Assembly: GCA_035283685.1 (NCBI GenBank)
Contig: DATETJ010000002.1
Coordinates: forward strand, 1 to 64,000
Direction: 5' to 3'
DNA length: 64,000 nt
From: Candidatus Bathyarchaeia archaeon
GTDB taxonomy: Archaea; Thermoproteota; Bathyarchaeia; Bathyarchaeales; Bathyarchaeaceae
How positions within the stretch are numbered: the stretch's first letter is position 1; every line of letters starts with the position of its first letter. The translations under genes were made by a program, and so were the position numbers. Positions 777-48,742 of this stretch are shown here, in pieces. Below the pieces are notes generated by a model, which worked only from the letters and a program-made list of their open reading frames with translations, was not told the origin of the DNA and did no database searches.

Positions 777-2060
777 CTACGGATGTGATCTTCGTGTTGT
801 GCGTGGGAAGGGGATGGAGTCAAATACGCTTTCTAGGTTAAGCATCCAAGCTAATAGGCGTTCAACTCCCATTCCGAAGCCGGTGTGCGGCACGCTGCCA
901 TACCGCCTGAGGTCGATGTACCATTCGTAATCTTCAGGCCGCAAGCCAAACTCCTGCAGGTTCCTTAACATCTCCTCTTTACTGTCTACACGGGCGCCGC
1001 CAGTTGACAGTTCGCCGATTCGGGGAACAAGAAGATCTGCAGACATCACGGTTTCCGGTCGGTCTGGATAGGCTTTAACATAGAACGCCTTGATCTTTTT
1101 TGGATACTTGTACACAAACACTGGCCCCCCAAACTCTTGCGTTAAGACTTTCTCCTCGTTGAAGCCGAAGTCTTCTCCCCACTGTATCTGGCAGCCTGCT
1201 TTCTGCAATCGCTGAATCGCCTCGTCATAAGTTATTTTCGGGAAAGGGGTCTTGATTTTGGCGAGCTCCTTGGGATCTAATCCCAACGCTTCGAGATGCT
1301 TCTTGCATTTTCGTGCAGCACTCTGGCAAATGAAGCTCACTAAGCCTTCTTCCAGACGCATGAGGTCATCGATCGTTGAGAAAGCTTCTTCCGATTCAAC
1401 GTGCCAATACTCTGTCAAGTGCCTAATCGTTCGACTTTTCTCCGCTCTGAATGAAGGTGCCACACAGTACACTTTTTCCAAAGAGTAGATCAGGACTTCT
1501 AGATGCAGTTGGGCGCTTTGAGTTAGATACATGACGTCGTCAAAGTATTTTACACCGAACAACGTGGCGCCGCCCTCAACCGCGCTCGAGATGAACATGG
1601 GCGGAGAAACCTCAGCAAACCTTTGTTTGTCGAAATACTCATGAACATACTTCAAGACTTCGCTTCGTATTTTCATGATGGTGTTCATTTTGCGGCTTCG
1701 CAGCCACAGGTGACGTACGTTTCGGAGAAATTCCTCACTCTTGTCCTTAGCTATAGGGAAATTCTCAGCCAACCCCATGATTTCTAGTTTGTCTACCGCG
1801 ATTTCATGCCCGCCTGGAGCCCGCTTGTCCAATTTGACAGACCCAGCCAAGGTAATAACAGATTCTATGGTTGCTTTCTCAGCTTCTGCCCACGCTGGGC
1901 TGTCCTTCTTGATTACGGTTTGGATGATGCCAGAAGCGTCTCTTATCACGAGAAAAATCGTGTCCTTGCTTTCACGTTTACGGTAGACCCATCCACGCAT
2001 CTCGACTTTCTTGCCTTTGACCTTGCCACTTAGGATGCTGTCTATGACAGTGTAGACCAT
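777..2060 (-). CDS. asnS: Asparaginyl-tRNA synthetase
   Basis: This 427-residue class II synthetase charges tRNA-Asn. The N-terminal OB-fold anticodon-binding domain covers about residues 15-100 (MRGWVYRKRES, FLVIRDASGIIQ). The catalytic core follows with motif 2 around SFRAEKSRTIRHLTEYWHVE and motif 3 GFGMGVERLLAWML near the C-terminus. YLTQSAQLHLE and the ending IPFPRTTRRSHP are typical of AsnRS rather than AspRS, which usually has a QSPQLYKQ-type stretch and a longer tail. The length matches archaeal AsnRS. The ATG start is supported by the OB fold beginning soon after it. It is divergent from the metal transporter at 2151. Confidence 0.93.
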   Translation of the reverse strand: MVYTVIDSILSGKVKGKKVEMRGWVYRKRESKDTIFLVIRDASGIIQTVIKKDSPAWAEAEKATIESVITLAGSVKLDKRAPGGHEIAVDKLEIMGLAENFPIAKDKSEEFLRNVRHLWLRSRKMNTIMKIRSEVLKYVHEYFDKQRFAEVSPPMFISSAVEGGATLFGVKYFDDVMYLTQSAQLHLEVLIYSLEKVYCVAPSFRAEKSRTIRHLTEYWHVESEEAFSTIDDLMRLEEGLVSFICQSAARKCKKHLEALGLDPKELAKIKTPFPKITYDEAIQRLQKAGCQIQWGEDFGFNEEKVLTQEFGGPVFVYKYPKKIKAFYVKAYPDRPETVMSADLLVPRIGELSTGGARVDSKEEMLRNLQEFGLRPEDYEWYIDLRRYGSVPHTGFGMGVERLLAWMLNLESVFDSIPFPRTTRRSHP

Positions 2061-2150
2061 GAACTAACTCGACCTTCAATATGCTACTTTCCCTTGACTT
2101 TTAAACTCTATCCCGCAGAGTGGACCTTAACCCTTAAATCTCCACGCAAA

Positions 2151-3551
2151 ATGTCTATGGATGACTACAGCATGTCCATTGGAAAAAGCATCAGCAACGT
2201 CAGAGCACTGCAACTTTCGTTTATCGCCATAGCCACAGTCGTAGTTTTCGAAGGTATGGTTGGGCTGATTACGAACAGCCTGGCCATAATAGGCGACTCG
2301 GCGCACGCCCTGCTCGACACAGTAACCACTCTCATTCTTCTCGTAACTACCAAACTCTCCATGAAACCACCAGACGACGAACATCTCTACGGACACGGCA
2401 AAATCGAACCTATAGGCGGCTTGATCGGAGGTGTGGCACTCATCGGCTTGGCGGCCTACCTTTTCTATGAAGCAGCAACGCGAATCTATACAATTACTTA
2501 CTTCGCAAGTGCTTTTGTACGCCATGAACCGATCGGCTTCGCAGCTGTTGCTTACACGTTGGCTGTCGATTTTTTCAGAATAGGAACCCTGTGGGGCAGA
2601 GATAAAGGCAGCGTTACTATAAAGGCTAGCCTTTACCATGCACTTTCAGACTTCGCATCGACCATGATCGCACTCTTGGGTTTCGGACTTCTTTTTCTTG
2701 GAGTCGACGATAGAGTTGACGCGACCGCCTCCATAGTCCTGAGCTTTTTGCTAGTTTATCTCACGATTGGACTCGTTCGAACCAGTGGCGCAGAGCTAAG
2801 CGACCAGATACCGAAAAGCACAGTCGCTGAAATCAGAAAGGAAATCATGGGCACTAAAGGGGCTCACATGTGCAAAGATTTGAAGGTGAGAAAAGTTGGC
2901 ACCAAAACTTTCGTGGAAACCACAATATGTGTACCCAGCGCTATGGAACTGGCTGAGGCACATGACGTTGCGTCACAGATAGAGAACAACATAACTCGCC
3001 TTTACGGCGACTCTTCCGTGACGGTTCATATAGAGCCAGTTGGAGCTGATAGGGCTGTTGACAAACAGATTGAAGGCTTGGCAACAGCGGTTGAAGGAGT
3101 CAGAGGAGTTCACAACCTTACGAGCGTCTATACTAAAGACAAGTTATACATCACACTGCACGCTTTGGTTGACCCGCAACTTCCCATTGAGCAAGCTCAT
3201 GACATAGCTGAGCGAATAGAAGCAAACTTGACTGGACAGATCACAGACATCGAAAACGTCACGGTTCACATCGAGCCGTTCACATCCACCCTACGTCGAG
3301 AGTTTGTAGTCGAAGAAGCGGATGTACGGAGGATTATCCGGCAAATAGTCGAGGCCCATCCAAATATCAGAAGAGCCAGAAGAGTTGTAACCTACGTCAG
3401 CGAAAAGAGACGCTATATTAACGTTGACTGCGTGTTTGACAAAGGCATTTCAGTCGAAGCTATGCACGACACGGTTTCACATGTTGAAGCCGAGATCAAG
3501 GGCAAATTCAAAGAAGCAGTAGTCACAATTCACGCAGAACCTTCGCCGTAG
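2151..3551 (+). CDS. Cation diffusion facilitator (CDF) metal transporter with three C-terminal domains
   Basis: This is a CDF-family exporter of divalent metals, about 466 residues. The membrane half (about residues 15-210) has the metal-site motif GDSAHALLD in TM2, HLYGHGKIEP after TM3, and HALSDFAST in TM5. The usual single cytosolic domain is replaced by three tandem copies ending in VTVHIEP, VTVHIEP and VTIHAEP. I chose the ATG at 2151 because an earlier possible TTG at 2094 coincides with a TATA-like CTTTTAAACT (2097-2106). The 3' end overlaps the convergent sdhE gene by 29 bases. Metal specificity cannot be read from the sequence. Confidence 0.9.
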   Translation: MSMDDYSMSIGKSISNVRALQLSFIAIATVVVFEGMVGLITNSLAIIGDSAHALLDTVTTLILLVTTKLSMKPPDDEHLYGHGKIEPIGGLIGGVALIGLAAYLFYEAATRIYTITYFASAFVRHEPIGFAAVAYTLAVDFFRIGTLWGRDKGSVTIKASLYHALSDFASTMIALLGFGLLFLGVDDRVDATASIVLSFLLVYLTIGLVRTSGAELSDQIPKSTVAEIRKEIMGTKGAHMCKDLKVRKVGTKTFVETTICVPSAMELAEAHDVASQIENNITRLYGDSSVTVHIEPVGADRAVDKQIEGLATAVEGVRGVHNLTSVYTKDKLYITLHALVDPQLPIEQAHDIAERIEANLTGQITDIENVTVHIEPFTSTLRREFVVEEADVRRIIRQIVEAHPNIRRARRVVTYVSEKRRYINVDCVFDKGISVEAMHDTVSHVEAEIKGKFKEAVVTIHAEPSP

Positions 3552-4392
3552 AAATCATATGCTTTGAGAAACCGAGTTTTTCAGGCTCTAAACCAAGAGC
3601 GTAGCCAACCATTTGAGACAAGTGTATCACTGGAAGGTTGATGTCGAATCCGGCTTGGCTCTGCGCTTTCTTCTGGTACAAGTCCAGCGAAATGTGGCAG
3701 AGTGGACACGGCGTCACCATCAAGTCTGCTTTTGCCTGTCTCGCATTGTTTAGATAGGTGGAAGCCATCTCAAACGCTGTGCTGCGCTGAACGAACAATA
3801 TAGGAAAGCCGCAGCATTTTGTCTTACCGTCATATTCGACTGGTTCGCCACCCAGCGCCGTTATCAACCGTTCAAACGACGTGGGTTTCTCATGACTCTC
3901 ATACTGCAATGCTTCAACTGGTCTAAGTATGTAACAACCATAGAATGGCGCAATCTTCAGGCCTTTTAACGGCTTGACCACTTGTTGCACGAGCTTGTCC
4001 AGCCCGTAGTCTTCAATCAACGCCCACAAAAGATGCTTTATCTTCACTCTGCCCTGATATTTCATGTTGATTTCAGCCAAAGCCTCATTCGTCTTCCCGA
4101 ACAGTTTTGGGTCGTTGTCCAGTTGCCACTGCACTTGACGCATGACGCCCTGACATGTACTGCAAATCGTTAAGATGTTCAAGCCCATGTTCTCAGCCAT
4201 GGCAAAGGTGCGTGCATTCAACACGGTGTTTAGGAAGGAGTTGCCTTCGTTTGTGACGCCTGCGCCGCAACACGATGCCGCCGTCAGCTCAACTAGCTCA
4301 ATTCCTAGTTTCTGTGCGATCAAAGCTGTAGAGTTATAGAGTTCGGGTGCAGTTGATTTGGCAACGCAGCCTGGATAATATGCGTATTTCAC
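3523..4392 (-). CDS. sdhE: Succinate dehydrogenase third subunit, HdrB-like CCG-domain protein (SdhE type)
   Basis: This 289-residue protein has two cysteine-rich CCG domains, as in heterodisulfide reductase subunit B. The signature stretches are YYPGCVAKS near the start, AASCCGAGV (about 39-47), CSTCQG, then YGCY, TKCCGFPI and TPCPLCH in the second half. In the non-classical succinate dehydrogenases of Sulfolobus-type archaea and in thiol:fumarate reductase such a subunit replaces the membrane SdhC/D anchors and handles quinone or thiol electrons. It is the last gene of sdhA-sdhB-sdhE and overlaps sdhB by four bases. Placement in the sdh operon is the main reason not to call it HdrB. Confidence 0.85.
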   Translation of the reverse strand: MKYAYYPGCVAKSTAPELYNSTALIAQKLGIELVELTAASCCGAGVTNEGNSFLNTVLNARTFAMAENMGLNILTICSTCQGVMRQVQWQLDNDPKLFGKTNEALAEINMKYQGRVKIKHLLWALIEDYGLDKLVQQVVKPLKGLKIAPFYGCYILRPVEALQYESHEKPTSFERLITALGGEPVEYDGKTKCCGFPILFVQRSTAFEMASTYLNNARQAKADLMVTPCPLCHISLDLYQKKAQSQAGFDINLPVIHLSQMVGYALGLEPEKLGFSKHMISTAKVLREL

Positions 4393-5342
4393 TTCTCTTT
4401 CACCTCATGCGCTAAGCGGAATATTGAGCGAATCTCGTCGATTTTGGGCACAGGTCGGGGAAACGGTAAGGGCGCCTTGCCTTTAACAGCCATCTTCAGG
4501 ATGAGGTCAAAGTCGCGGATAGTGGTCCAGCCCATGGTTCTTAAATACAGTGTAGCTTCGTTGAGCATGCCTGTGCGTTCAATTGAATTCATAAATGCGT
4601 TGACGTGGCGTGCGCCATGGCTTTCGTCACCTTGTTTGAACGACAAAGCTCTCAGTACAGAAATTGCAGCCACTGGTCTCACGTCTCTGGGACATTGTGA
4701 CCAGCAGAAATAGCAGTGCGTGCACGCCCACAAGCCTAACCCAACTAATGCTGGAACCCTGTTTGCTCCAACTTTGTCTCGAGGGTCAGCGACTAGCCGA
4801 TGAACTTTTGCCAGAGACGCTGGACCCGCGAAGTTCTTGTCAAAAATCCTTGAAACGCAGTCTGAGAAGCAGCATCCGCACATTATGCAGTCAGCTAATC
4901 TTCCTGAAACCTGTTGTTGTTCGTTTGTGAGCAGGTTTTCTTTGCTTGAGCCTTCTAAGGTATTGTCCCATTCAAGCCAAGGTGTTCCTCTATCGATTTC
5001 GCGCCAAAACTCGTTCATGTCGACGACTAGGTCTCTAATCAACGGCATGTTGTCCATGGGTTCAACCAGTACTTCGCCATGATTTTCCACTTCAGTCACG
5101 ACGCGTGTCTTGCACGCCAACTTAGCGAGGCTGTTGACTTTCATGGCGCACGAGCCGCAGATGCCGCTTCGACACGATCGCCTAAAGGAGAGCGACGCGT
5201 CCTGTTCGTGTTTGATGTCTTCAAGCGCGTCGAGCACGGTCATGCGATTGTCGATCTTTACACGATACGTTTCATAACGACGGCTTGCGTCTCTCTCTGG
5301 GTTGTACCGCAAGATTCGAAAAACCGCTTCTTGAGCCGTCAT
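4389..5342 (-). CDS. sdhB: Succinate dehydrogenase/fumarate reductase iron-sulfur subunit
   Basis: This 317-residue subunit carries electrons from the flavoprotein through its Fe-S clusters. The plant-type 2Fe-2S site is at Cys57, Cys62, Cys65 and Cys77 (CRSGICGSC). Two further cysteine groups lie at CIMCGCCFSDC (about 152-162) and CTHCYFCWSQCPRD (207-217). The extra Cys in the first group and the absence of a membrane-anchor gene fit the SdhE-type enzyme. Its start abuts the stop of sdhA with one base between, and its end overlaps sdhE, so the three genes are surely one operon. A fumarate reductase role is possible from sequence alone. Confidence 0.92.
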   Translation of the reverse strand: MTAQEAVFRILRYNPERDASRRYETYRVKIDNRMTVLDALEDIKHEQDASLSFRRSCRSGICGSCAMKVNSLAKLACKTRVVTEVENHGEVLVEPMDNMPLIRDLVVDMNEFWREIDRGTPWLEWDNTLEGSSKENLLTNEQQQVSGRLADCIMCGCCFSDCVSRIFDKNFAGPASLAKVHRLVADPRDKVGANRVPALVGLGLWACTHCYFCWSQCPRDVRPVAAISVLRALSFKQGDESHGARHVNAFMNSIERTGMLNEATLYLRTMGWTTIRDFDLILKMAVKGKAPLPFPRPVPKIDEIRSIFRLAHEVKEK

Positions 5343-5343
5343 T

Positions 5344-7017
5344 TTAGTAACCTCTTGCTTCAGGTTTGAAGCGGGTGATCGTTACAGGCTTGTATGAAAG
5401 TTTGGGGCCATCGGCAGTTCGGACTGCTAAAGTGTGCTTCAACCATTTGTCATCGTCCCGCTTCGGATAATCAGTGCGATGATGAGCCCCTCGGCTTTCC
5501 TTCCTCGCCAAGGCGCCAGCTACAATAACCTCAGCCAAGTCTAGCTCGAAGCCTAGTTCCAAGGTTTCAATCAAACTTGTGTTGAATTTGCGGCTTGAAT
5601 CCATGACTGAAACTGTTTCAATCTGACGCTTCAAGGCCGCTACGTTTTTGACAGCGGTTTCCCCATCGCGTTTTTGTCTGAAAATGCCTACTTTGTCAAA
5701 CATCGTGCTGCCCATTGCTCTCTTGATTTCCGAGGCTTTTACCCCGTCTTTGCGATTTAGCAACGTCTCGATGCGTTTCTGCTCGTTCTGCAGAGGTTTC
5801 TCAGGAAAACCGGTAGCCGAAGCTTCTTTCGCATATTCTGCCGCTTTTGCTCCAGCTCGTTTACCAAACACAACTGTGTCGAGCAGAGAGTTGCCGCCTA
5901 AGCGGTTGGCTCCGTGGACGCTTATGCAAGCGCATTCGCCTGCAGCGTAGAGCCCTTTAACTGGCGTCACCCCATTCATACCTGTGGGAACGCCCCCCAT
6001 GGTGTAATGTTGCGCTGGCTGAATAGGGATGGGCTCCTTTACGGGATCGACTCCCGCAAAGTAGATGGCTAACTCTCGAATCGTAGGGAGACGCTCGTTG
6101 ATTTTTGCCTCACCCAGATGGCGCAAGTCCAAGTGCACGTATTCGTTTGCGAAGCCTCGGCCTTCTGTGATCTCGGTTTCTATGGCGCGGGCAACAATGT
6201 CTCTGGGAGCTAACTCCATTTTGTCAGGCGCGTACTTTTTCATGAAGCGTTCGCCCTGAGCGTTGACTAGGTAGCCGCCTTCGCCTCTGGCGCCTTCGCT
6301 TACAAGAATGTTAGAACCATAAAGCGTGGTGGGATGAAACTGCACGAACTCCATGTCTTCAATGGGAATGCCAGCATTATATGCCATGGCAATGCCGTCG
6401 CCAGTTGTTGAAAGCGAATTTGAAGTCTTGTTGTAGACTTGCCCAGCGCCACCAGCAGCCAAGATAACAGCCTTGGCTTCGACAGCATGAACTTCGCCGG
6501 TCACGATTTCGATGGCGGTTAATCCCTTGCAGACATTGTCTTCAACAACTAGTGAAGTGGCAAACCACTCCTCGTACATCTGAACGCCGTTCTTGCGCGA
6601 TTGTTCAAAAATCGTTGTCTGCAACACATGCCCAGTTTTGTCAGCGGCAAAACACGTTCGCGGAAAACCTGCTCCCCCAAAAGGACGCTGAGCTATCCTG
6701 CCATTGTCAAAACGGGTGAAAAGTGCGCCCCAGTGTTCAAGTTCAATTATGGCTCTGGGCGCATCTTTGCACATGACTTCAACTGCATCTTGGTCGGCTA
6801 GGTAGTCGCTGCCTTTGATTGTGTCAAAGGTGTGTTTCTCCCAGCTGTCGTCTTCGCCTAGAGGGGCGTTTATTCCGCCCTGTGCTTGATCTGAATGCGA
6901 GCGCACTGGGTGTAGCTTCGACAGAACAGCGACGTCTGCGCCTTTTTCTCTGGCTTCAATCGCAGCTCGAAGTCCAGCTAGTCCGGCTCCAACCACAATT
7001 ACGTCATGTTTTATCAT
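5344..7017 (-). CDS. sdhA: Succinate dehydrogenase/fumarate reductase flavoprotein subunit
   Basis: This FAD-dependent subunit oxidises succinate or reduces fumarate; it is about 557 residues. The Rossmann GAGLAG is at residues 10-15, and His41 in RSHSDQAQGG is the expected covalent FAD ligand. Active-site segments FHPTTLYG, PRDIVARAIE and HGANRLGGNSLLDT are intact. The frame is open further upstream, but the ATG at 7017 places the dinucleotide fold at the N-terminus as in the family. The longer version would run through the opposite-strand trmO gene. It is the first gene of sdhA-sdhB-sdhE. Confidence 0.95.
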   Translation of the reverse strand: MIKHDVIVVGAGLAGLRAAIEAREKGADVAVLSKLHPVRSHSDQAQGGINAPLGEDDSWEKHTFDTIKGSDYLADQDAVEVMCKDAPRAIIELEHWGALFTRFDNGRIAQRPFGGAGFPRTCFAADKTGHVLQTTIFEQSRKNGVQMYEEWFATSLVVEDNVCKGLTAIEIVTGEVHAVEAKAVILAAGGAGQVYNKTSNSLSTTGDGIAMAYNAGIPIEDMEFVQFHPTTLYGSNILVSEGARGEGGYLVNAQGERFMKKYAPDKMELAPRDIVARAIETEITEGRGFANEYVHLDLRHLGEAKINERLPTIRELAIYFAGVDPVKEPIPIQPAQHYTMGGVPTGMNGVTPVKGLYAAGECACISVHGANRLGGNSLLDTVVFGKRAGAKAAEYAKEASATGFPEKPLQNEQKRIETLLNRKDGVKASEIKRAMGSTMFDKVGIFRQKRDGETAVKNVAALKRQIETVSVMDSSRKFNTSLIETLELGFELDLAEVIVAGALARKESRGAHHRTDYPKRDDDKWLKHTLAVRTADGPKLSYKPVTITRFKPEARGY

Positions 7018-7123
7018 GAAGAGAAACCTAACCCCTTCCTCAAGATTTAGTGGAAAAGCTCTATTAAAGCTATGACACTGATTCATCAGCAACAGGCAAT
7101 TCAACGATAGGAGCGCCAGAGAG

Positions 7124-38023: not shown

Positions 38024-38629
38024 CTAGGCTTTCAACTTTTCCAACACAGTCTTCAGGATATCTTTTGCCACTTCCTTGATCGGCTTGTCACCGTCCAGCG
38101 AAATCATCCGTTGCCGCTGTGCCAACTCTAGATACACGTCCCTCACCTTCCTCAAATTCCGCATGTTCTCCATCACAGACTTCTTCTTCTTTAGTCGGCC
38201 AACCACCACGTCAGGAAGAACGTCCAGCAGCAAAGCCAAGTCAGGTTTCAAAGCAAACAGGTTAATGCAATCTATCCAGTCCAAATCCAGTCCACCTGCT
38301 CCCTGATACGCTAGGCTCGAGTAAATGTAGCGGTCACACACCACGATCTTGCCCTGTTTCAATAAAGGCTCAACCTCGGTCTCCACATGGTCTACTCTGT
38401 CAGCCGCGAACAACAGGGCTTCTAGAGCGATTGGCACACGCCTCTCACGGTCAAGCACATAACTGCGTATCAGTTTCCCAACCTTGCCAACACTGGGTTC
38501 AGTCGTGTAGACTGCATCAAAGCCTCGACGTCGAAGATTCCTGACCAGTAGTTTGGCTTGAGTTGTTTTCCCACAGCCGTCGACTCCTTCAATGCACACG
38601 AACTTGCCTGTCGTCTTGCGCCTTGCCAT
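38024..38629 (-). CDS. tmk: Thymidylate kinase
   Basis: This protein of about 201 residues phosphorylates dTMP to dTDP. From the ATG at 38629 it reads MARRKTTGKFVCIEGVDGCGKTTQAK, where GVDGCGKTT is the P-loop. The DRY-type motif is CDRYIYSSLAYQGAGGL, and the LID segment is near MRNLRKVRDVYLELAQ. The conserved Asp-Arg and Tyr that bind dTMP are in place. An earlier ATG at 38677 is open but has no ribosome binding site and would lengthen the enzyme beyond the family norm. Confidence 0.92.
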   Translation of the reverse strand: MARRKTTGKFVCIEGVDGCGKTTQAKLLVRNLRRRGFDAVYTTEPSVGKVGKLIRSYVLDRERRVPIALEALLFAADRVDHVETEVEPLLKQGKIVVCDRYIYSSLAYQGAGGLDLDWIDCINLFALKPDLALLLDVLPDVVVGRLKKKKSVMENMRNLRKVRDVYLELAQRQRMISLDGDKPIKEVAKDILKTVLEKLKA

Positions 38630-38765
38630 CCGGTTCTCAACTCGTAAGCTTCGCAACATGTTAAACCCATGGGGCATAAATGAGTTTCAGTCCTTTCTCC
38701 GAATAGGATCGATTGCTTTAATAACTTTGACAAAATCAAGCTTTCAGAAGAGAGGCGCCCATGGT

Positions 38766-40043
38766 ATGAGGCAGTATTGGGGCGAAATCAAAGACCCTGT
38801 TCACGGCTACGTATACATAACCGAAGCCGAAAAACAGATCATTGATTCTTTTCCAGTGCAACGGCTCAGAAGGCTTAGGCAACTAGCCGGAGCCGAATAC
38901 GTTTATCCAGCTGCCAACCACACACGGTTTGAACACTGCGTTGGCGTCATGCACCTAGCCGGTGTGATGGCTGAAAACCCCTTCCTGTCCAAACACTTCA
39001 ACGACAACGAATATCAGCTGATCCGCATCGCAGCCCTACTGCACGATGTTGGACATGGACCGTTCTCGCACATTTTTGAGCATTTGCTAGTCAAATTTCT
39101 CAACAAAACGCATGAAGACATCAACGTTTGGATTGTGCAGAAATCCGAATTGAAGGACATCATCAGCAAGCTAGGATTCAATGTTGACCAAGTGGCTAAG
39201 CTGTCGGTGGGATGGCTGCACAAGCCCAAACGGGCCTTCATGGATCAAATCATACGCAGCGCCGTTGATGTGGACAAGCTGGATTTCGTGGTTCGCGACA
39301 CGTATCACACAGGCGCCCAATATGGCTATGTTGATGTCTTCCGTCTGATTCAAACCTTAGACGTGCTGGACCAAAATCTAGCCGTTGACGCAGGCGCGTT
39401 ATCAGCGCTCGAATCCTTCATCCTAGCCCGAATTGAATCGTTCAAGAGCATATACTTCCACCGTGTCGGACGAGCCGTCCAACTCATGCTAGCCATGGCT
39501 ATGGAAGAAGCAAAAGACGAACTCGGCCTAGTTGACTTCAAAACGCCAGAAGAATACCTTGCCTTCGACGATTACACTGTTTGGACCATGCTCAAAAAAT
39601 CGAAAAAATCAAAAAAAGTCATCGAAAACCTTGAGAAACGACGACTACTCAAATGCGCCTACGACCGAACCTTTTACGTGCGCGACAAGACTGTCTCCAA
39701 CCTTTTCAGCCACGAAGAGATCCGCAATCAACTGCGTGACCAAATCGCTGAAAAAGCCAAAGTGAAACCGCGCGACGTAGTCATCGACGTACCCACGCTG
39801 CCCTCAGTGCCCTACAGCCACTCGGTTCTGCTTGAGCCTATGGAGATTCCAGTTTTCACCCGAACCCGTGAAGGTGAGAAGGTTCCGCAGCGGCTTAGCG
39901 ACATATCGGGTATATTTGACGTGTTAAAGGGGTTCATCAACATCTTGCGCGTATACACTGATGTGGAGCATAGAGAAAGGGTGAGCGCCGCCGCAGTCAA
40001 ACTCTTAGGCGACTTGCCATCATCCGCAAAAATATCTTTCTAG
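38766..40043 (+). CDS. HD-domain phosphohydrolase (SAMHD1/dGTPase-like)
   Basis: This protein of about 425 residues has the metal-binding HD residues in HTRFEHCVGVMHLAG and LLHDVGHGPFSH, then SAVDVDKLDFVVRDTYHTGAQYG, which completes the H-HD-D set. It also starts WGEIKDPVHGYVYIT, the characteristic N-terminus of dNTP triphosphohydrolase-like proteins in archaea. It may hydrolyse dNTPs. The ATG at 38766 has AGAGG ten bases upstream and a TATA-like CTTTAATAAC at about 38717. The next gene begins three bases after the stop. Confidence 0.9.
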   Translation: MRQYWGEIKDPVHGYVYITEAEKQIIDSFPVQRLRRLRQLAGAEYVYPAANHTRFEHCVGVMHLAGVMAENPFLSKHFNDNEYQLIRIAALLHDVGHGPFSHIFEHLLVKFLNKTHEDINVWIVQKSELKDIISKLGFNVDQVAKLSVGWLHKPKRAFMDQIIRSAVDVDKLDFVVRDTYHTGAQYGYVDVFRLIQTLDVLDQNLAVDAGALSALESFILARIESFKSIYFHRVGRAVQLMLAMAMEEAKDELGLVDFKTPEEYLAFDDYTVWTMLKKSKKSKKVIENLEKRRLLKCAYDRTFYVRDKTVSNLFSHEEIRNQLRDQIAEKAKVKPRDVVIDVPTLPSVPYSHSVLLEPMEIPVFTRTREGEKVPQRLSDISGIFDVLKGFINILRVYTDVEHRERVSAAAVKLLGDLPSSAKISF

Positions 40044-40046
40044 AAA

Positions 40047-40469
40047 ATGGCGGGAAGATTGTTGCCACGAGTCAAGAAGACCCTCAAAGGAAGAGGCATC
40101 GCAGGTGGTCGCAGCAGAGGAGTCGCTTTGGTTTCAAATATGCCTTTGAGCTTTTTGGGCGGAGTAGACTACGATTCCGGCGTTGTCATCGAAAAAAACC
40201 ACGACTTAAAAGGCCAACCGCTGAAAGATAAGATCCTCTGTTTCACGTCGGGGCATGGTTCAACAGTGGGCAGCTATGTATTGTATTCGCTGGCTAAGAA
40301 GGGAGCCGGCCCAAAAGCCATCGTCAATCACATAGCCGACACAGTCATAGTTGTGGGCGCCATAATCGCTGAAATTCCCATGGTTGACCAAATCGACATC
40401 AAACAGATCACAACGGGCAACGTAGTTGAGGTCGATGGCGACAAGGGCACAGTGAAAATCATAGAATAG
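40047..40469 (+). CDS. Phosphomevalonate dehydratase small subunit (aconitase X swivel, DUF126)
   Basis: This 140-residue protein is the swivel domain of aconitase X. GRGIAGGRSRGVALVSNMPLSFLGGVDYDSG opens it. ENHDLKGQ-like NHDLKGQPLKDKILCFTSGHGSTVGSYVLYSLAKKG contains the Ser of the substrate site (GSTVGS). With the large subunit at 40485 it should dehydrate mevalonate 5-phosphate to trans-anhydromevalonate phosphate, a step of the modified mevalonate pathway described in Aeropyrum. It lies 15 bases upstream of the large subunit and just after the HD gene. Confidence 0.88.
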   Translation: MAGRLLPRVKKTLKGRGIAGGRSRGVALVSNMPLSFLGGVDYDSGVVIEKNHDLKGQPLKDKILCFTSGHGSTVGSYVLYSLAKKGAGPKAIVNHIADTVIVVGAIIAEIPMVDQIDIKQITTGNVVEVDGDKGTVKIIE

Positions 40470-40484
40470 GAGACTGGGCCAAGC

Positions 40485-41651
40485 TTGTACCTAACCAAGG
40501 TTGAGGAGCGCACGTTAGACGGCGAACACGGCTGGGCTAACCAAATTGCCATGAAAATTCTTGTGAAACTAGGCGACTTGTTCGGCGCGACCCGACTGAT
40601 TCCCGTGCAGTCGGCGCATCTATCAGGCGTGTCCTACAAGCATTTAGGCGACGCGGCGATAGAGTTTCTCGGCGAGCTTGCAAGCAAGGGTGGTGAAGCT
40701 AAGGCGGCTTCGACGCTTAATCCGTCAAGCTTTGACCCAAAGTACTTAGTGAAACGTTACTCTAAGGAACGATTTGCCAAGCAAAAGCGCATACTCGAGC
40801 TTTACGGGCAAATGCGTATTCAGCCTACCCTGACTTGCACACCATATTATCTTCAAGAGCCCCAAGCTGGCCAGCATTTGGCTTGGGCAGAGTCCTCAGC
40901 CGTGGTGTACGCCAACTCAGTGTTAGACGCGTGGACTAATCGTGAAGGAAGCCCAAGTGCGTTGGCAGCCGCCTTAATCGGGAAAACCCCGAACTACGGT
41001 GTACATCAGCCGGAAAACCGCAAGCCCAACGTGCTAGTCAACGTCGAAGCCAAACTTAAGACGGAAACGGATTTCGGCGCGCTTGGAATCCATTTGGGCA
41101 AGTTACTGAAAGACAGGGTTCCTGCTTTTCAAGGGCTGCGAGGCTCAGACGATGAGTTGAAGCAGTTGGGCGCGGCAATGGCATCAAGCGGCATGACTGC
41201 ACTTTTTCACAGGACATCTCCAAGGGGCAAGGGGATGTTAGAGACAGTTTCAGTTGAAACCCGCGAAATTGAGGAGTCGGCTTCAAGTCTCTGTACTTCA
41301 GAAAAATCTCCAGACCTTGTTTTCATCGGATGCCCTCACTGCTCAGCAAACGAGGTTAAGGAAATCGCCGGTCTTCTTGAGAATAAGAAAGCTCGCAGAG
41401 ACGTTGAACTGTGGGTATGCACCTCAAGGTATGTGCGTGACAAGGCGAAAAAGCATGTTGAAGTCATCGAACGAGCTGGCGGACACGTGCTATGCGACAC
41501 ATGCGTTTTGGTTACATGGGTGAAGGACTTGGGCTTTGATACGCTTATGACGAATTCGGCAAAAACAGCCTTCTATGCGCCCACTTTGAATGAAGTGGAT
41601 GCTACTCTGAAGCCCGTACGCCACTGTATAGAAGCCGCGTGTCAACAGTAG
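40485..41651 (+). CDS. Phosphomevalonate dehydratase large subunit (aconitase X catalytic domain, DUF521)
   Basis: This 388-residue protein is the AcnX catalytic domain. The cysteine-bearing segments TLTCTPYYLQEPQAG, IGCPHCSAN and LCDTCVLVTW fit the 4Fe-4S ligands of AcnX enzymes. SSAVVYANSVLDAWTNREGSPSALAAALIGKTPNYG is a family hallmark. It starts with TTG at 40485, 15 bases after the small subunit, so the pair forms an operon. The neighbouring ubiD gene (41969) would use the product, which supports phosphomevalonate dehydratase rather than a hydroxyproline-type AcnX. Confidence 0.9.
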   Translation: MYLTKVEERTLDGEHGWANQIAMKILVKLGDLFGATRLIPVQSAHLSGVSYKHLGDAAIEFLGELASKGGEAKAASTLNPSSFDPKYLVKRYSKERFAKQKRILELYGQMRIQPTLTCTPYYLQEPQAGQHLAWAESSAVVYANSVLDAWTNREGSPSALAAALIGKTPNYGVHQPENRKPNVLVNVEAKLKTETDFGALGIHLGKLLKDRVPAFQGLRGSDDELKQLGAAMASSGMTALFHRTSPRGKGMLETVSVETREIEESASSLCTSEKSPDLVFIGCPHCSANEVKEIAGLLENKKARRDVELWVCTSRYVRDKAKKHVEVIERAGGHVLCDTCVLVTWVKDLGFDTLMTNSAKTAFYAPTLNEVDATLKPVRHCIEAACQQ

Positions 41652-41692
41652 TTTCGGGTCAGCTCCTGCAAGCTAAAGGCATGTTCTGAAGC

Positions 41693-41914
41693 TCATAAGT
41701 TTGAGGGGTTTTTTCTTCCCCAGTCGGTTTTGTTCCAGATTCTTTCATGAAGATAATATGCAATGCTAGTGTAGACATTGCTCACTATTGTAAACCCTAG
41801 TGAAATCTCAATTCTGCTTGTGAGAAGGTAGATTGTAGTGAAATCTAAGATTACTATCAGAATTCTGTACGTAACAGCTTTGGTCAACGACCTCTTTCGA
41901 GTTACGATACTCAT
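41693..41914 (-). CDS. Small DUF2061-type membrane protein
   Basis: This 73-residue protein has two hydrophobic segments (RILIVILDFTTIYLL and ISLGFTIVSNVYTSIAYYL) and ends HERIWNKTDWGR. That matches the DUF2061 family, whose HE-R-x-W-x-x-x-x-W-G ending is distinctive. The function is unknown. In some organisms the family is linked to sulfur assimilation, but nothing here supports that. The ATG at 41914 stands alone between the AcnX and UbiD genes. Confidence 0.82.
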   Translation of the reverse strand: MSIVTRKRSLTKAVTYRILIVILDFTTIYLLTSRIEISLGFTIVSNVYTSIAYYLHERIWNKTDWGRKNPSNL

Positions 41915-41968
41915 CTTGTTTCACAGGCACCTTTTGAAGTCTTGTTGAGTTAAGCAGCCATCTTAGAA

Positions 41969-43321
41969 TCATTGTTTCTTCAGAGCTTTTTTCAACTCAC
42001 TGATGGTCTCGGTTATTGACTTGCCGGCTGGGATTTTTGCCAGCTCAAACTTTTCCCGCGGCTTGTTCAACGGTCGAGTGGCGTCCACGCCGACTTTTGT
42101 AGTTAACCCTGTTTCCTGATCAGCTGAGGGGTCGAGTGTGGAGCCGCGAGCATGGGGGATAAGTAACAAGTCTTCGTTGGCTTGGAACCTTGTGGCGATG
42201 GCCCATTCAACCATATCTGGGTCGAAGACATCAATGTCTGTGTCAACCACAACCGCGTGCTTGAGGCTTGGATGGGCACTGAAGGTAGCGGCGAGGGCGT
42301 TTTTGGCGTCTCCGTCTACTTGTTTGTCAATTGAGACTATGGCGTGCAGCCAACCGCAGCCGCCGTTTGTCAGGTTCACGGCTTTGACTGTCGGGACGAC
42401 TTTTGACACGGCTTCCCAAATCATGGTTTCATGTGGCAAGCCCATGAGTAGTTTATGTTCTGAGCCTGAAGGCAACAGCGCTTGGTACATGTAGTCTCTT
42501 CGATGCATCATGCTGACAAGTTCCACTACGGGCTGCTTGCGTTGTACGTCGTAGGTGCCAGTGATGTCGACAAGCGGACCTTCAGTGACTTCTTTGTCGG
42601 TTAAAATTCTGCCTTCCAACACCAGCTCAGCTTCAGAGGGCGCGTAGGCCCTAACGTGTTCGCATTTGACTAGATTCATTTTGTTGTTGAGGAACGTGTT
42701 TGCCACGCCGAATTCGCTGACTCCGAAGGGCACTGGTGAAGCTGCGGCCAACATGACCGCTGGATGCGTGCCTATCGTGATGGCGACATCGAGGTTTTCT
42801 TTCTTTTCTTTGGCGGTTTTCCACATGTTGTACAAATGCCGTGGCACCAAGCGAATTGCCAAGTGATTGTCGTCTAAGACTTGGAGGCGATGAATGGATA
42901 CGTTTTCGATTTTTCCATCGGAGCTACGAGCTGAAATCACAGAAGATGTGATGTAAGCGCCTGCGTCGCGCTCAAAATGAGTAAGAATGGGAAGTTTGGA
43001 CAACCGCGCTTTCTCGACCACTTCGTTTACGGGTCCGCCTCGTACAATCTTGGGTGGCTGTGGCTCGCGCCAAGCTTTGGTTATTCGCTGGTGGAGCGCC
43101 TCTAGGCTTAAGCCCAGAGCCCAGCACAAGCGTTGGCGAGTCCCGCAGACTCCAGCTACGATTTTTGTGCGGCTGCCTTTCACGTTGTCAAAGTAAAGTA
43201 TTGGTCCGTTGTCGAATTCTTTCATGAAGGCTGAGACTTCAAAGCGTGGCGAAACTTCCCGGTCAACTTGCGTGAGTTGATTTTTCTTCTGCATTTCAGC
43301 CAAGAAACTTCGCAGACTCAC
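41969..43321 (-). CDS. UbiD-family decarboxylase, likely anhydromevalonate phosphate decarboxylase
   Basis: This 450-residue UbiD-type enzyme uses prenylated FMN. The family residues are present. YFDNVKGSRTKIVAGVCGTRQR, EFGVANTFLNNK and the C-terminal DTDIDVFDPDMVEWAIATRFQANEDLLLIP are all clear. Beside the AcnX pair, the likely reaction is decarboxylation of trans-anhydromevalonate 5-phosphate to isopentenyl phosphate, as for the Aeropyrum enzyme. The role rests on gene neighbourhood. The flavin prenyltransferase UbiX is not in this window. It overlaps the upstream small gene by four bases. Confidence 0.9.
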   Translation of the reverse strand: MSLRSFLAEMQKKNQLTQVDREVSPRFEVSAFMKEFDNGPILYFDNVKGSRTKIVAGVCGTRQRLCWALGLSLEALHQRITKAWREPQPPKIVRGGPVNEVVEKARLSKLPILTHFERDAGAYITSSVISARSSDGKIENVSIHRLQVLDDNHLAIRLVPRHLYNMWKTAKEKKENLDVAITIGTHPAVMLAAASPVPFGVSEFGVANTFLNNKMNLVKCEHVRAYAPSEAELVLEGRILTDKEVTEGPLVDITGTYDVQRKQPVVELVSMMHRRDYMYQALLPSGSEHKLLMGLPHETMIWEAVSKVVPTVKAVNLTNGGCGWLHAIVSIDKQVDGDAKNALAATFSAHPSLKHAVVVDTDIDVFDPDMVEWAIATRFQANEDLLLIPHARGSTLDPSADQETGLTTKVGVDATRPLNKPREKFELAKIPAGKSITETISELKKALKKQ

Positions 43322-43677
43322 TTCTTTGCAGCCTCCTTTTCCTGTTCGAATGTTTTGTCAAACAATTTGAGAAAAACTGCTCCTGCATCTTGGTCGCCTA
43401 GTCTGGTGAAAACTGATGCTAAGGCAAGTTTGCCTGTCTTGTGTGCTAGGCGTTCGGCTATCAGTCGGGCTATTATGATGTTTCTGTCTCCAAGCATTAT
43501 TGAAGACACTGGTGGCCCTATCATTTTTTCTGCGGGTGGCATGGCGACAGCCAAGGTGCCGAGTTGGTCTTCGGCTTCGCTTAGAAGTAGTAGGTTGGCG
43601 TTTTTGGTTTCAAGTCGCAAGGCGTAGAATGTGAGGTCGCCGTGTGTCATTTCCTCTTGCACGATTTTTGCGCGCAT
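43318..43677 (-). CDS. Small conserved protein, possible PAC3 (PSMG3)-like proteasome assembly chaperone
   Basis: This 119-residue protein lies just upstream of ubiD and overlaps it by four bases, so they are cotranscribed. The sequence order resembles PAC3/PSMG3. A strand NANLLLLSEAEDQLGTLAVAMPP matches the ILVLVTQ..KMGTL segment, followed by PVSSIMLGDRNIIIARLIAERLAHKTGKLALASVFTRLGDQD and a last helix GAVFLKLFDKTFEQEK. The match is from memory of the family pattern, not an alignment. It could equally be an uncharacterised beta-alpha protein linked to UbiD function. Confidence 0.4.
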   Translation of the reverse strand: MRAKIVQEEMTHGDLTFYALRLETKNANLLLLSEAEDQLGTLAVAMPPAEKMIGPPVSSIMLGDRNIIIARLIAERLAHKTGKLALASVFTRLGDQDAGAVFLKLFDKTFEQEKEAAKK

Positions 43678-43759: not shown

Positions 43760-44470
43760 ATGAGCGAAAGGAAGAGAGCGCAGAGGATTCTGCAGATACT
43801 TAGCAACGAGTTCGGGATTCCAAAGTGGACAGGCTCGAAGAGGGAGCCTTTCCAAACGCTAATAGGAACCGTCTTGTCTCAAGCTACCAACGATAGGAAC
43901 AGGGATCAAGCTTATGCCAATTTAGTGAAGAGATTTGAGATTGACCCCAAGGAGTTGGCCAGCGCTGACGTGAAGGAAATTGAGAAAGCCATCCGTGTTG
44001 GCGGGCTATATCGGAATAAGGCTTCGAAAATCAAAGCGTTGTCAAAGACCGTCTTGAAGGAGTTTAATGGCTCGCTTGACTTCATTTTCTCCGAGCCTCT
44101 CGAGAAGGCCAGAGAACTGTTGATGAGTATTCCGGGGGTTGGACCCAAAACAGCTGACGTAGTGCTCGTGTTTGCTGCGAATAAGTCCACGATTCCCGTG
44201 GATACTCATGTTAACCGTGTTTCGAGACGGCTGGGCTTGGCGCCGTTAAGGGGAGGCTACGAGGACGTTCGCAGGTCGTTGGAGTCCTTGTATCAGGCGC
44301 CCGACTATTTGGCGATCCATTTGTTGCTCATCAGCCTGGGAAGGAAGTATTGCAGGGCGCGTAACCCGCTTCACAAACCGTGCCCAGTAAAGGCTTTGTG
44401 CCCAACTGTCAAGAAAGAAGCTGCTCAACCAAGCTTGCATAGGCTTCATGGAAGCAGGGATTATCCTTGA
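43760..44470 (+). CDS. nth: Endonuclease III (DNA glycosylase/AP lyase)
   Basis: This 236-residue base-excision enzyme removes oxidised pyrimidines. The helix-hairpin-helix IPGVGPKTADVV contains the catalytic Lys130, and Asp148 lies in VDTHVNR. The C-terminal cluster region reads C198-x6-H205-x2-C208-x5-C214, so the second cluster cysteine is replaced by His. The ATG at 43760 follows a TATA-like CTTTTAAAT at about 43731. The XPD gene overlaps its end by four bases. Confidence 0.93.
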   Translation: MSERKRAQRILQILSNEFGIPKWTGSKREPFQTLIGTVLSQATNDRNRDQAYANLVKRFEIDPKELASADVKEIEKAIRVGGLYRNKASKIKALSKTVLKEFNGSLDFIFSEPLEKARELLMSIPGVGPKTADVVLVFAANKSTIPVDTHVNRVSRRLGLAPLRGGYEDVRRSLESLYQAPDYLAIHLLLISLGRKYCRARNPLHKPCPVKALCPTVKKEAAQPSLHRLHGSRDYP

Positions 44471-47112: not shown

Positions 47113-47194
47113 AACATTTGTTTCCATTGTTATAGAAGACGTTTTCACAATTCTTATCTTGAATCCTCTCAGAGATACAACGCTTGTGGTTAAC

Positions 47195-48742
47195 ATGAAG
47201 AAAATGTCTATCGCACTTGTGCTAATGGCTGTTCTGCCGATTTCCCTCTTGGTTGCAGGCGTTCACGCATCCGTAGGATGGTCCAGATGGTACACCGCAC
47301 CCATAGACTCAGACGGATTTGTCGGTCGTGATACCTCTATAGCATTGGATTCGAGTGGCAGCCCACATATAAGATACTTCAACTGGACGAGTGGCGATCT
47401 GAAATATGCTACGTGGACTGATGCAGGTCCAGGATGGAGCATTGAAACCGTGGACTCAGGCAGCGAAGATGTCGGAGGCAGTGGAGGACGCTCAATTGAC
47501 TTAGATTCTGGTGGCAATCCACACATTAGCTACATAGGACCTAGCTACCAAGGCCTGAAGTATGCTACAAAAAGCGGCGGAACATGGAGCATCGACACCG
47601 TCGACTCTGCAGGCGAAGGCTGGCCATCTCTAGCTTTGGATTCCAGCAACAATCCGCACATAAGCTACTATAATTCTACTGAAGGTTTGAAATATGCGAG
47701 GTGGACAGGTTCAGCATGGAACATCGAAGTTGCGGACTCCACGAACGGTAGATATACATCTATTGCCCTCGACTCAAGCGATAACCCGCACATAAGCTAC
47801 CGTGGCGACGGTAATGCTGTGATGCATGCCAGAAAGAGCGGTGGCACATGGAACATCGAAACAGTTGACTCCACACCTGATGGAACCGCAGGTACAGGTA
47901 CCTCAATTGCTTTGGACTCGGGCAATAATCCACACATCAGTTATCAGGGATGGCCTGGTTTAAGATATGCTGAGAAGAGCGGTAGTTCATGGATTAATGA
48001 AACCGTGGACTCCTACGGCGACTTTGGTGCTTGGAACTCAATTGCAATTGACTCAAGCGATAACCCAAACATAGCTTACCGCGACGATTCGAATGGTCGT
48101 TTGAGATACGCGATGTGGACTGGGTCGGCGTGGAACCTTGAGACCGTTGACGAAGTAGGAAACGTCGGCAGCGGTGCGTCTATTGCCTTGGACTCGAACA
48201 ATAATCCGCACATAAGTTACTATGATGGCACAAACAGCGATTTGAAGTATGCATCTATACTATTGCCCGACGAAATATGGTCATCTGACGCTTCAGGCAA
48301 TCCTAAAGACGTGTTCGTGCCAGGTGAAACAGTGTACGTAACTTGTCCACAGCCGCGCACTTATTGGACTACTGTCACCATATACGTGGTGGCTGACCAA
48401 GCAGTTTGGAATGAAGGCGATTCTCTAACAGACGTCTCTGGTGGTGATGAGATGGTCACGGTATCTCCGGGTCCAACAGGAACAACTCAGACGTTCCAGA
48501 TTTGGCCTCCGCTGCTTGCTGTGGGAAGCTACGACATTGTTATGGACAAAGACAACGACGCGGTCTTTGATCAGGGGCTAGACCTCGTTGACTCGGTGCT
48601 CATAACAGGCTTTAATGTGATTCCGGAAGTGCCTTTTGGCACTGCCATGACGTTCCTCAGCATGTTCATCGCCTTCGTAGGGTTCCTAGGGTTCAAACGA
48701 TTAAGACCGAAGATACAACTGCAATTTAGAAAGACAGATTGA
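47195..48742 (+). CDS. Secreted beta-propeller-like surface protein with C-terminal anchor
   Basis: This protein of about 515 residues starts with a signal peptide (MKKMSIALVLMAVLPISLLVAGVHA). Seven repeats of 40-50 residues follow. Each contains SIALDSxxNPHISY and ends LKYAxWT or similar, fitting a seven-bladed propeller. A second domain (about 370-470) follows. The C-terminus has IPEVPFGTAMTFLSMFIAFVGFLGFKRLRPK, a Pro-Glu-x motif, one hydrophobic helix and a basic tail. This resembles archaeosortase-type PEF-CTERM signals. An upstream TTG at 47159 is possible, but the ATG gives a normal signal peptide. Confidence 0.8.
   Translation: MKKMSIALVLMAVLPISLLVAGVHASVGWSRWYTAPIDSDGFVGRDTSIALDSSGSPHIRYFNWTSGDLKYATWTDAGPGWSIETVDSGSEDVGGSGGRSIDLDSGGNPHISYIGPSYQGLKYATKSGGTWSIDTVDSAGEGWPSLALDSSNNPHISYYNSTEGLKYARWTGSAWNIEVADSTNGRYTSIALDSSDNPHISYRGDGNAVMHARKSGGTWNIETVDSTPDGTAGTGTSIALDSGNNPHISYQGWPGLRYAEKSGSSWINETVDSYGDFGAWNSIAIDSSDNPNIAYRDDSNGRLRYAMWTGSAWNLETVDEVGNVGSGASIALDSNNNPHISYYDGTNSDLKYASILLPDEIWSSDASGNPKDVFVPGETVYVTCPQPRTYWTTVTIYVVADQAVWNEGDSLTDVSGGDEMVTVSPGPTGTTQTFQIWPPLLAVGSYDIVMDKDNDAVFDQGLDLVDSVLITGFNVIPEVPFGTAMTFLSMFIAFVGFLGFKRLRPKIQLQFRKTD

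Follow-up and report, generated by a model that had tools for sequence, protein, structure and literature searches.

A probable AcnX–UbiD module of the modified mevalonate pathway in a Bathyarchaeia genome and its apparent displacement by a second version in relatives

Introduction

The archaeal modified mevalonate pathway was reportedly described in Aeropyrum pernix by Hayakawa et al. in 2018. The A. pernix pathway resembles that of the genome studied here in having a type II AcnX pair, a UbiD, a UbiX, a mevalonate kinase (MVK) and an isopentenyl phosphate kinase (IPK), with no phosphomevalonate kinase (PMK) or diphosphomevalonate decarboxylase (MDD) found. A. pernix was compared by description. 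In our locus, AcnX and UbiD are convergent between an HD-domain and a PAC4-like gene. The type IIb AcnX of T. kodakarensis (7cnr/7cns; PMC8184944) shares with our locus the two subunits, three cluster cysteines, the catalytic Glu and Lys and the backbone of the phosphate loop, but differs from it by an identity of 48% and by Asn53 and Ala47, which are replaced by His and Ser, respectively.

The window analysed is a stretch of 64,000 nucleotides (positions 1 to 64,000 of contig DATETJ010000002.1) from a Candidatus Bathyarchaeia archaeon. Taken jointly, the results make it very probable that its AcnX pair is a phosphomevalonate dehydratase and its UbiD the decarboxylase of the next step. This version of the module, termed A, looks resident and appears to have been displaced by a version B in several relatives.

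Results

Organization of the locus

An earlier note on this DNA had placed an AcnX pair and a UbiD gene on opposite strands within 3.3 kb, and all three ORFs were recovered there with family scores above the cut-offs, as shown in Table 1. The small subunit (AcnXS) scored 109.9 bits against PF01989 (cut-off 27) and 166.8 bits against NF003046 (cut-off 163), the large subunit (AcnXL) scored 450.6 bits against PF04412 (cut-off 31.5), and UbiD scored 424.1 bits against TIGR00148 (cut-off 244.85), with matches to PF20695, PF01977 and PF20696. The AcnX subunits run in the same direction with a gap of 15 nt. UbiD is convergent with them at a distance of 317 nt, and there is a 4-nt overlap between its start and the stop of the PAC4-like gene. 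AcnXL starts with TTG and UbiD with GTG. The PAC4-like gene scored 31.4 bits against PF16093 (cut-off 31). An HD gene also stands beside AcnX in Methanomethylicota, and the HD and PAC4-like genes mark the native locus but probably lie outside the pathway. The co-location of AcnX and UbiD is not due to chance, because the two adjoin in many related genomes and in more than one arrangement.

Table 1. Features of the AcnX–UbiD locus, with positions in the window
Feature	Position	Strand	Evidence
HD-domain gene, upstream of AcnX	38592..40043	+	PF19276, PF01966, conserved neighbour
AcnX small subunit (swivel domain), putative phosphomevalonate dehydratase	40047..40469	+	PF01989, NF003046, 7cnr_B alignment
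AcnX large (catalytic) subunit, putative phosphomevalonate dehydratase, type IIb, version A	40485..41651	+	PF04412, 7cnr_A, residues, tree
UbiD-family decarboxylase, probable trans-anhydromevalonate 5-phosphate decarboxylase, version A	41969..43321	-	TIGR00148, PF01977/PF20695/PF20696, tree
PAC4-like (proteasome assembly chaperone) gene, upstream of UbiD	43318..43677	-	PF16093, conserved neighbour
Nth-like DNA glycosylase, far flank of native locus	43760..44470	+	PF00730; flanks scar in B-type genomes

Pathway genes in the genome

The genome encodes MVK (TIGR00549, 276 bits, cut-off 163), IPK (NF040647, 244 bits, cut-off 120), the type 2 isomerase IDI2 (TIGR02151, 414 bits, cut-off 281) and UbiX (TIGR00421, 262 bits, cut-off 109), the last being a single copy on a contig other than that of UbiD. 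HMG-CoA reductase was detected with TIGR00532 (488.8 bits, cut-off 260), a class labelled degradative by NCBI, while the NADPH-type model TIGR00533 gave weak pieces only in this genome. PMK was not found, as judged from a GHMP-kinase search of the genome alone, in which the two matches at E ≤ 1 were the mevalonate kinase and a pantoate-kinase-like protein. Likewise, no MDD exceeded the TIGR01240 cut-off in the genome, the two weak matches being MVK and the pantoate-kinase-like gene; the same model passed its cut-off in two of 14 control genomes. A phosphomevalonate decarboxylase is reported for some Bathyarchaeia in PMC11052028, and the model for this enzyme reached only 20.5 bits in our genome (cut-off 475), in the pantoate-kinase-like protein. 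At a completeness of 98.13% and a contamination of 3.63%, the genome may hold a pathway gene that escaped detection.

The earlier note had predicted exactly this pattern, that is, PMK and MDD absent and IPK and UbiX present. With MVK also present, the gene content fits the archaeal modified mevalonate pathway and supports that reading of the locus, in which the substrate would be assigned by analogy.

Two versions of the module in Bathyarchaeia

Two versions of the AcnX/UbiD module occur in Bathyarchaeia, and the window carries version A. Confined to this order within the class, the survey took in 162 genomes, 27 from the family and 135 from outside it. Types were assigned manually according to how well the window proteins matched (lowest E-value among the matches listed), a procedure by which weaker second copies can be missed. 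Both genes could be assigned in 137 genomes, with 60 being A/A, 75 B/B and two carrying parts of both, and the AcnX type equalled the UbiD type in 135 of them. Four fragments (G002, G196, G159 and G167) were typed by identity. The other 25 genomes were not typed for both genes, and 12 of these had one gene typed (four AcnX-B and eight UbiD-A).

Version A looks like the resident version, while B appears to be a foreign, horizontally moved MVK-UbiD-AcnXL-AcnXS block that replaced A in several relatives. Version B is related to genes of Diapherotrites and Nitrososphaerota, with identities to the window proteins mostly of 43–48% for AcnX and 39–45% for UbiD. Unlike the convergent genes of the window, the B genes are operonic, with their own MVK in most loci examined; in six B loci (L085, L086, L158, L159, L166 and L174), UbiD-AcnXL-AcnXS lies between MVK and IPK, within the operon formed by these two genes. 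Both versions consist of the same three gene families and would carry out the same two reactions. The HD-gene tree needs five A/B changes, both in its first version and in one rebuilt without L151 (an absurd branch, most likely from a wrong reading frame), the outside rows L180 and L182 and the near copies G009 and G010.

Scars of version A were observed in seven genomes of the family, six of which carry B genes. HD adjoins PAC4 with AcnX and UbiD missing between them in G014, G023, G025 and G026, while G021 and G022, from two genera, have lost an identical internal piece of UbiD, and the junction and flanks also match. G021, the seventh genome and 75% complete, yielded neither an AcnX nor a complete UbiD. 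G001 has B genes and A-type AcnX genes together; it carries a broken A large subunit and lacks an A UbiD beside its PAC4 and Nth genes, as expected for redundancy with B. Displacement by a homologous module, together with these scars, supports equal function of A and B.

Assembly or binning artefacts might also produce such a pattern with its scars, as many of the genomes are metagenome-assembled, contamination amounts to 5% in G141 (which has two UbiD types) and 6% in G022, and a third UbiD-A piece in G022 lies at a contig end. We consider this very improbable, since the UbiD deletion is identical in two genera, the bare HD/PAC4 adjacency recurs in four genomes, and the gene types agree almost throughout.

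The two versions and the displacement were not found described in the accessible literature, including the parts consulted of PMC8184944, PMC10040528, PMC11052028, PMC9635834 and PMC7976604. Because this coverage stops short of most subscription journals and of supplements, the two versions and their displacement can be called new only weakly.

Conserved residues and phylogeny

AcnXL aligned with 7cnr chain A (E 2.1e-93), the first residues of the two being paired, and AcnXS with 7cnr_B (E 1.2e-37), an alignment in which the Ser-Thr-Val substrate motif of the small subunit is present. In T. kodakarensis numbering, with residue roles taken from PMC8184944, the window AcnXL keeps the cluster cysteines C110, C283 and C342 in the type IIb arrangement, E129 and K361, the substrate residues S130, S131, N79 and Y365, and the G48-V49-S50 loop. 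G48, S50, N79, the three cysteines, E129, S130, S131 and K361 are identical in all rows of a 76-row alignment comprising groups A, C, B and the outgroup, T. kodakarensis included. Among the contacts of mevalonate 5-phosphate, G48, V49, S50, N79, S130 and the small-subunit S62 and T63 are kept. At position 53, where T. kodakarensis has an Asn that contacts the phosphate, the window is the only one of the 76 rows to have His. His53 constitutes a weak objection, because this position varies in the family (Thr in 19 of the 20 A rows; N, T or S outside group A).

A second, divergent AcnX pair is encoded on another contig (C9) of the genome. It is unlikely to be the real phosphomevalonate dehydratase, because the phosphate loop is absent from all 12 sequences of its type.

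Version A could alternatively act on a shifted, related substrate, with the pathway step done elsewhere in the genome, for example by the C9 pair; the change at position 53, the second pair itself and the coexistence of B genes with A-type AcnX genes in G001 would agree with this. We give it hardly any credence, since G001 has a broken A large subunit and no A UbiD next to PAC4 and Nth, the C9 type lacks the loop and turned up in 12 of the 256 genomes of the class at E ≤ 1e-120, and UbiD is a single copy in the window genome (searched with the window UbiD as query), as is the UbiD match at E ≤ 1e-40 in 64 of the 69 order genomes typed UbiD-A, among the matches listed.

The separate small and large subunits, matching PF01989 and PF04412, are those of a type IIb enzyme. 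With one type I row as its root, the AcnXL tree placed the A rows in one clade of 20 (support 100/99) among archaeal rows, and the window sequence grouped with the archaeal enzymes apart from type I, with which the scores agree. The window UbiD has the full architecture and groups with the UbiDs whose genes neighbour AcnX in archaea. Its best PDB sequence match is 6h6v (350 bits), which we take to be the bacterial furandicarboxylate decarboxylase HmfF. This protein belongs to the same family, but in a tree rooted on it, a 100/100 branch separates 67 rows, including the window and one long paralog (L038), from HmfF and two paralogs. The earlier note had named a grouping of the AcnX subunits with hydroxyproline-type enzymes as a result that would refute its reading. 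That AcnX is a hydroxyproline-type enzyme lying near UbiD by accident, for which the 6h6v match might speak, is rejected as barely credible on score, residues and tree: both scores are far under the 700-bit cut-off (241 bits for the hydroxyproline-type model), the large subunit scored 316 bits against the archaeal 7cnr and 165 bits against the bacterial 7d2r and sits among archaeal rows in the tree with its one type I row, the hydroxyproline landmarks Asp47 and Ile50 are both Ser in the window, the UbiD branch sets HmfF apart, and the agreement of types across genomes speaks against accidental nearness.

Discussion

By analogy with the characterised systems of A. pernix and Methanosarcina, from which we infer the substrate, cofactor and activity of the window enzymes, the AcnXS/AcnXL heterodimer would use a [4Fe-4S] cluster, bound by the three cysteines, to dehydrate (R)-mevalonate 5-phosphate to trans-anhydromevalonate 5-phosphate. 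UbiD, with prenylated FMN supplied by UbiX, would decarboxylate this product to isopentenyl phosphate, which IPK would convert to IPP and IDI2 in turn to DMAPP, for use in membrane lipids. According to PMC10040528, the enzymes of Methanosarcina mazei have been studied in a carotenoid-reporter strain of E. coli.

The dehydratase and decarboxylase may function efficiently only when the two are matched to each other. The dehydration equilibrium lies towards mevalonate 5-phosphate (87.7%, PMC10040528), so partners that fit each other may pass the intermediate on between them. Such pairing would explain why A was displaced by B repeatedly and as a whole set, and why none of the 137 genomes typed for both genes showed a working A/B hybrid, even though the A genes are non-adjacent in several of these. 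We regard this idea as unlikely; a plainer reading would be that B arrives as one operon, making both A genes redundant together.

In an archaeon, AcnX and UbiD genes for lipid synthesis are to be expected, and the route is already known. According to section 3.2 of PMC11052028, the phylogenies of AMPD and AcnX1 are relatively conserved in most Euryarchaeota and Thermoproteota, a claim that the seemingly repeated module swaps within Bathyarchaeia would qualify. In a largely uncultured class, diverged versions that swap as a set, with the loser decaying, offer natural evidence for function.

Identity and conserved residues of the AcnX pair and UbiD

The earlier note had claimed an aconitase X (AcnX) pair and a UbiD gene within 3.3 kb, and all three genes are present there (see the table), each scoring above the curated cut-off of its named family. 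Among solved structures, those nearest to AcnXL and AcnXS are the large (E 2.1e-93) and small (E 1.2e-37) chains of T. kodakarensis AcnX, and the one nearest to UbiD is 6h6v (E 1.6e-103). With residue positions taken from PMC8184944, alignment revealed that the window AcnXL retains the cluster cysteines, Glu129, Lys361, Ser130, Ser131, Asn79, Tyr365 and the Gly48-Val49-Ser50 loop, and the small subunit retains Ser-Thr-Val. Position Asn53 is His in the window AcnXL, the sole His among 76 aligned rows; 19 of the 20 rows of the window's type (version A) have Thr there, and all remaining rows have N, T or S.

Coordinates of the features described
Feature	Location	Coordinates	Strand	Observation
AcnXS	window	40047-40469	+	
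AcnXL	window	40485-41651	+	
UbiD	window	41969-43321	-	
PAC4-like gene	window	43318-43677		proteasome-assembly-chaperone gene; 4-nt overlap with UbiD start
Secreted-looking protein	window	47159-48742		repeated 'SIALDSSxNPHISY'-like motifs and C-terminal hydrophobic segment, by eye
UbiX	region of L009, contig C11 of window genome	2788-5220		away from UbiD; slight overlap with both neighbours
AcnXL_2 and AcnXS_2	L073, contig C9 of window genome	5943-7567 (from about 385942)		divergent pair
Broken A-type AcnXL	L074, G001	5890-7079		three pieces
Second UbiD-AcnXL-AcnXS set	L170, G066	2320-5249		
UbiD nearest to window's (73%)	L161, G141	910-2280		

Pathway genes of the window genome

The window genome (2.28 Mb, 12 contigs, completeness 98.13%, contamination 3.63%) carries on the same contig one cluster (L007) of enolase, RpsB, a MEMO-like gene, mevalonate kinase (MVK), isopentenyl phosphate kinase (IPK), type 2 isomerase (IDI2) and prenyl synthase; the last four identities are backed by profile scores, and the first three are presumed from their sequences. 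Among five candidates scored in the GHMP search, two matched at E<=1, namely MVK and a pantoate-kinase-like protein that scores below its family cut-off. As predicted, no diphosphomevalonate decarboxylase scored above cut-off, its model giving only weak matches to these same two proteins; of 14 control genomes, 2 have a match that passes the model's cut-off. IPK and UbiX had been expected and were both found, IPK with UMP kinase as the AA-kinase matches and UbiX, like UbiD, as one gene in the genome. UbiX is flanked by genes that we take to be FAA-hydrolase-like on one side and Ftr-like on the other. The HMG-CoA reductase belongs to TIGR00532, a class described by NCBI as degradative.

This genome has a second AcnX pair, which at E<=1e-120 occurs in 12 of 256 class genomes. 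Its cysteines and Glu129 are conserved in 12 of 12 sequences, and in all 12 Ser-Ser-Gly replaces Gly48-Val49-Ser50 with a gap at 53, so that the phosphate loop is absent. Hydroxyproline dehydratase is its sole NCBIfam match (234 bits, far under the cut-off of 700), and its branch in the AcnXL tree is long and of unsure placement. It is followed by a presumed malate/lactate-dehydrogenase-like gene, and close by are genes we take to be Ftr-like, glutamine-synthetase-like and imidazolonepropionase-like.

Two versions of the gene set

Sequence searches, first within the family (27 genomes) and then across the class (256 genomes), revealed two gene sets in the order. Version A comprises an HD gene, AcnXS and AcnXL, plus UbiD adjoining the PAC4-like gene; UbiD and AcnX are apart in several genomes (134 kb in G118, separate contigs in G133 and G143). 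Version B has the order MVK_B-UbiD_B-AcnXL_B-AcnXS_B. At three loci (L085, L086 and L166) the B block lies between the MEMO-like gene and IPK, the site of native MVK in the window genome, and at L079 it adjoins the MEMO-like gene, reversed.

Both genes were typed in 137 of the 162 genomes of the order, giving 60 A/A, 75 B/B and two mixed, though the 137 are related by descent and represent fewer independent cases. Because types were assigned from the best match to the window's proteins, weaker second copies may escape; of the 69 genomes typed UbiD-A, 64 gave just one UbiD match at E<=1e-40. The mixed genomes are G001 (broken A-type AcnX with B-type AcnX and UbiD) and G141 (UbiD-A with B-type AcnX and UbiD); the latter is 5% contaminated, and its UbiD-A possibly sits on a stray contig. 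G066, which has a version A set (L169), also has a second set that clusters with class-level rows; the UbiD of this second set shares 56% identity, and its AcnXL 42%, with the window counterparts.

Probable origin and loss of version A

In the AcnXL tree (79 rows, rooted on a single bacterial type I row on a long branch), all 20 version A rows form a single clade (100/99) adjoining other Bathyarchaeia and Methanomethylicota with moderate support (91/85), while B rows fall elsewhere (98/88), alongside Nitrososphaerota, Diapherotrites and an unnamed archaeon, and make up at least two lineages. The UbiD tree (70 rows, rooted on 6h6v) repeats the split, with A beside Bathyarchaeia and Methanomethylicota (98/88) and B beside Thermoplasmata, DPANN and others (98/100). 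Methanomethylicota (L202, L210, L217, L250) show the order UbiD-AcnXL-AcnXS-HD, with a TMK gene farther on, and this shared AcnX-HD linkage indicates that the HD neighbourhood is old. We infer from these sequence comparisons that version A is resident and version B horizontally acquired. The HD-gene tree (19 family and six outside rows) contains five A/B changes, of which the starred branches force three or four, and the rows closest to the window come from G013 and G014, both of them B genomes (97/93).

Remnants of version A were found in several relatives. In G001, a frame change and a TGA break the A-type AcnXL, the adjoining small subunit is unbroken, and no UbiD lies beside the PAC4 and Nth genes; its B block, about 4 kb from the native MVK-IPK cluster, has complete MVK, AcnXL and AcnXS genes and a UbiD_B truncated where the contig ends. 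G021 and G022, from different genera, share an internal deletion (about residues 57-380) in a UbiD-A flanked by PAC4 and a threonine-dehydratase-like gene. Besides B, G022 carries a third fragment of UbiD-A, located at the end of a contig, and a search for AcnX in G021 (75% complete) found none. In four further genomes (G014, G023, G025, G026), only 164-221 nt separate the HD match from the PAC4 match, Nth comes next, and AcnXS, AcnXL and UbiD are absent from the locus; all four have B-type AcnX, G014 retains UbiD residues 1-43 there, and the search of family genomes found no UbiD in G025.

An HD match occurs in 19 family genomes without version A; in four of them (G003, G007, G015, G018) it is fragmentary or runs up to, or close to, the end of its contig. 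The other 15 have no AcnX in the roughly 1-1.5 kb examined beside it, nor any trace of the A locus there except in G014, G023, G025 and G026, described above, and in G024, where Nth adjoins HD. The PAC4-like gene persists where UbiD is lost or decayed in seven relatives (G001, G014, G021, G022, G023, G025, G026).

Functional implications

The gene set is of a known kind, and the archaea-type pathway is described as dominant in archaea in PMC11052028. No earlier description of the A-by-B displacement pattern was found in the literature searched, whose coverage left out most subscription journals. MVK_B scores 224.6 bits against the mevalonate kinase cut-off of 163, so where the B block lies between the MEMO-like gene and IPK, the proposed dehydratase and decarboxylase genes are flanked by those of the preceding and following kinases, which is the best context evidence for these roles. 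Judged by sequence, versions A and B very probably share the same job, and by the same means we infer that the window's AcnX pair and UbiD would serve as phosphomevalonate dehydratase and trans-anhydromevalonate 5-phosphate decarboxylase. As neither a B set nor a second UbiD was found in the window genome, version A must act there if the pathway takes this route.
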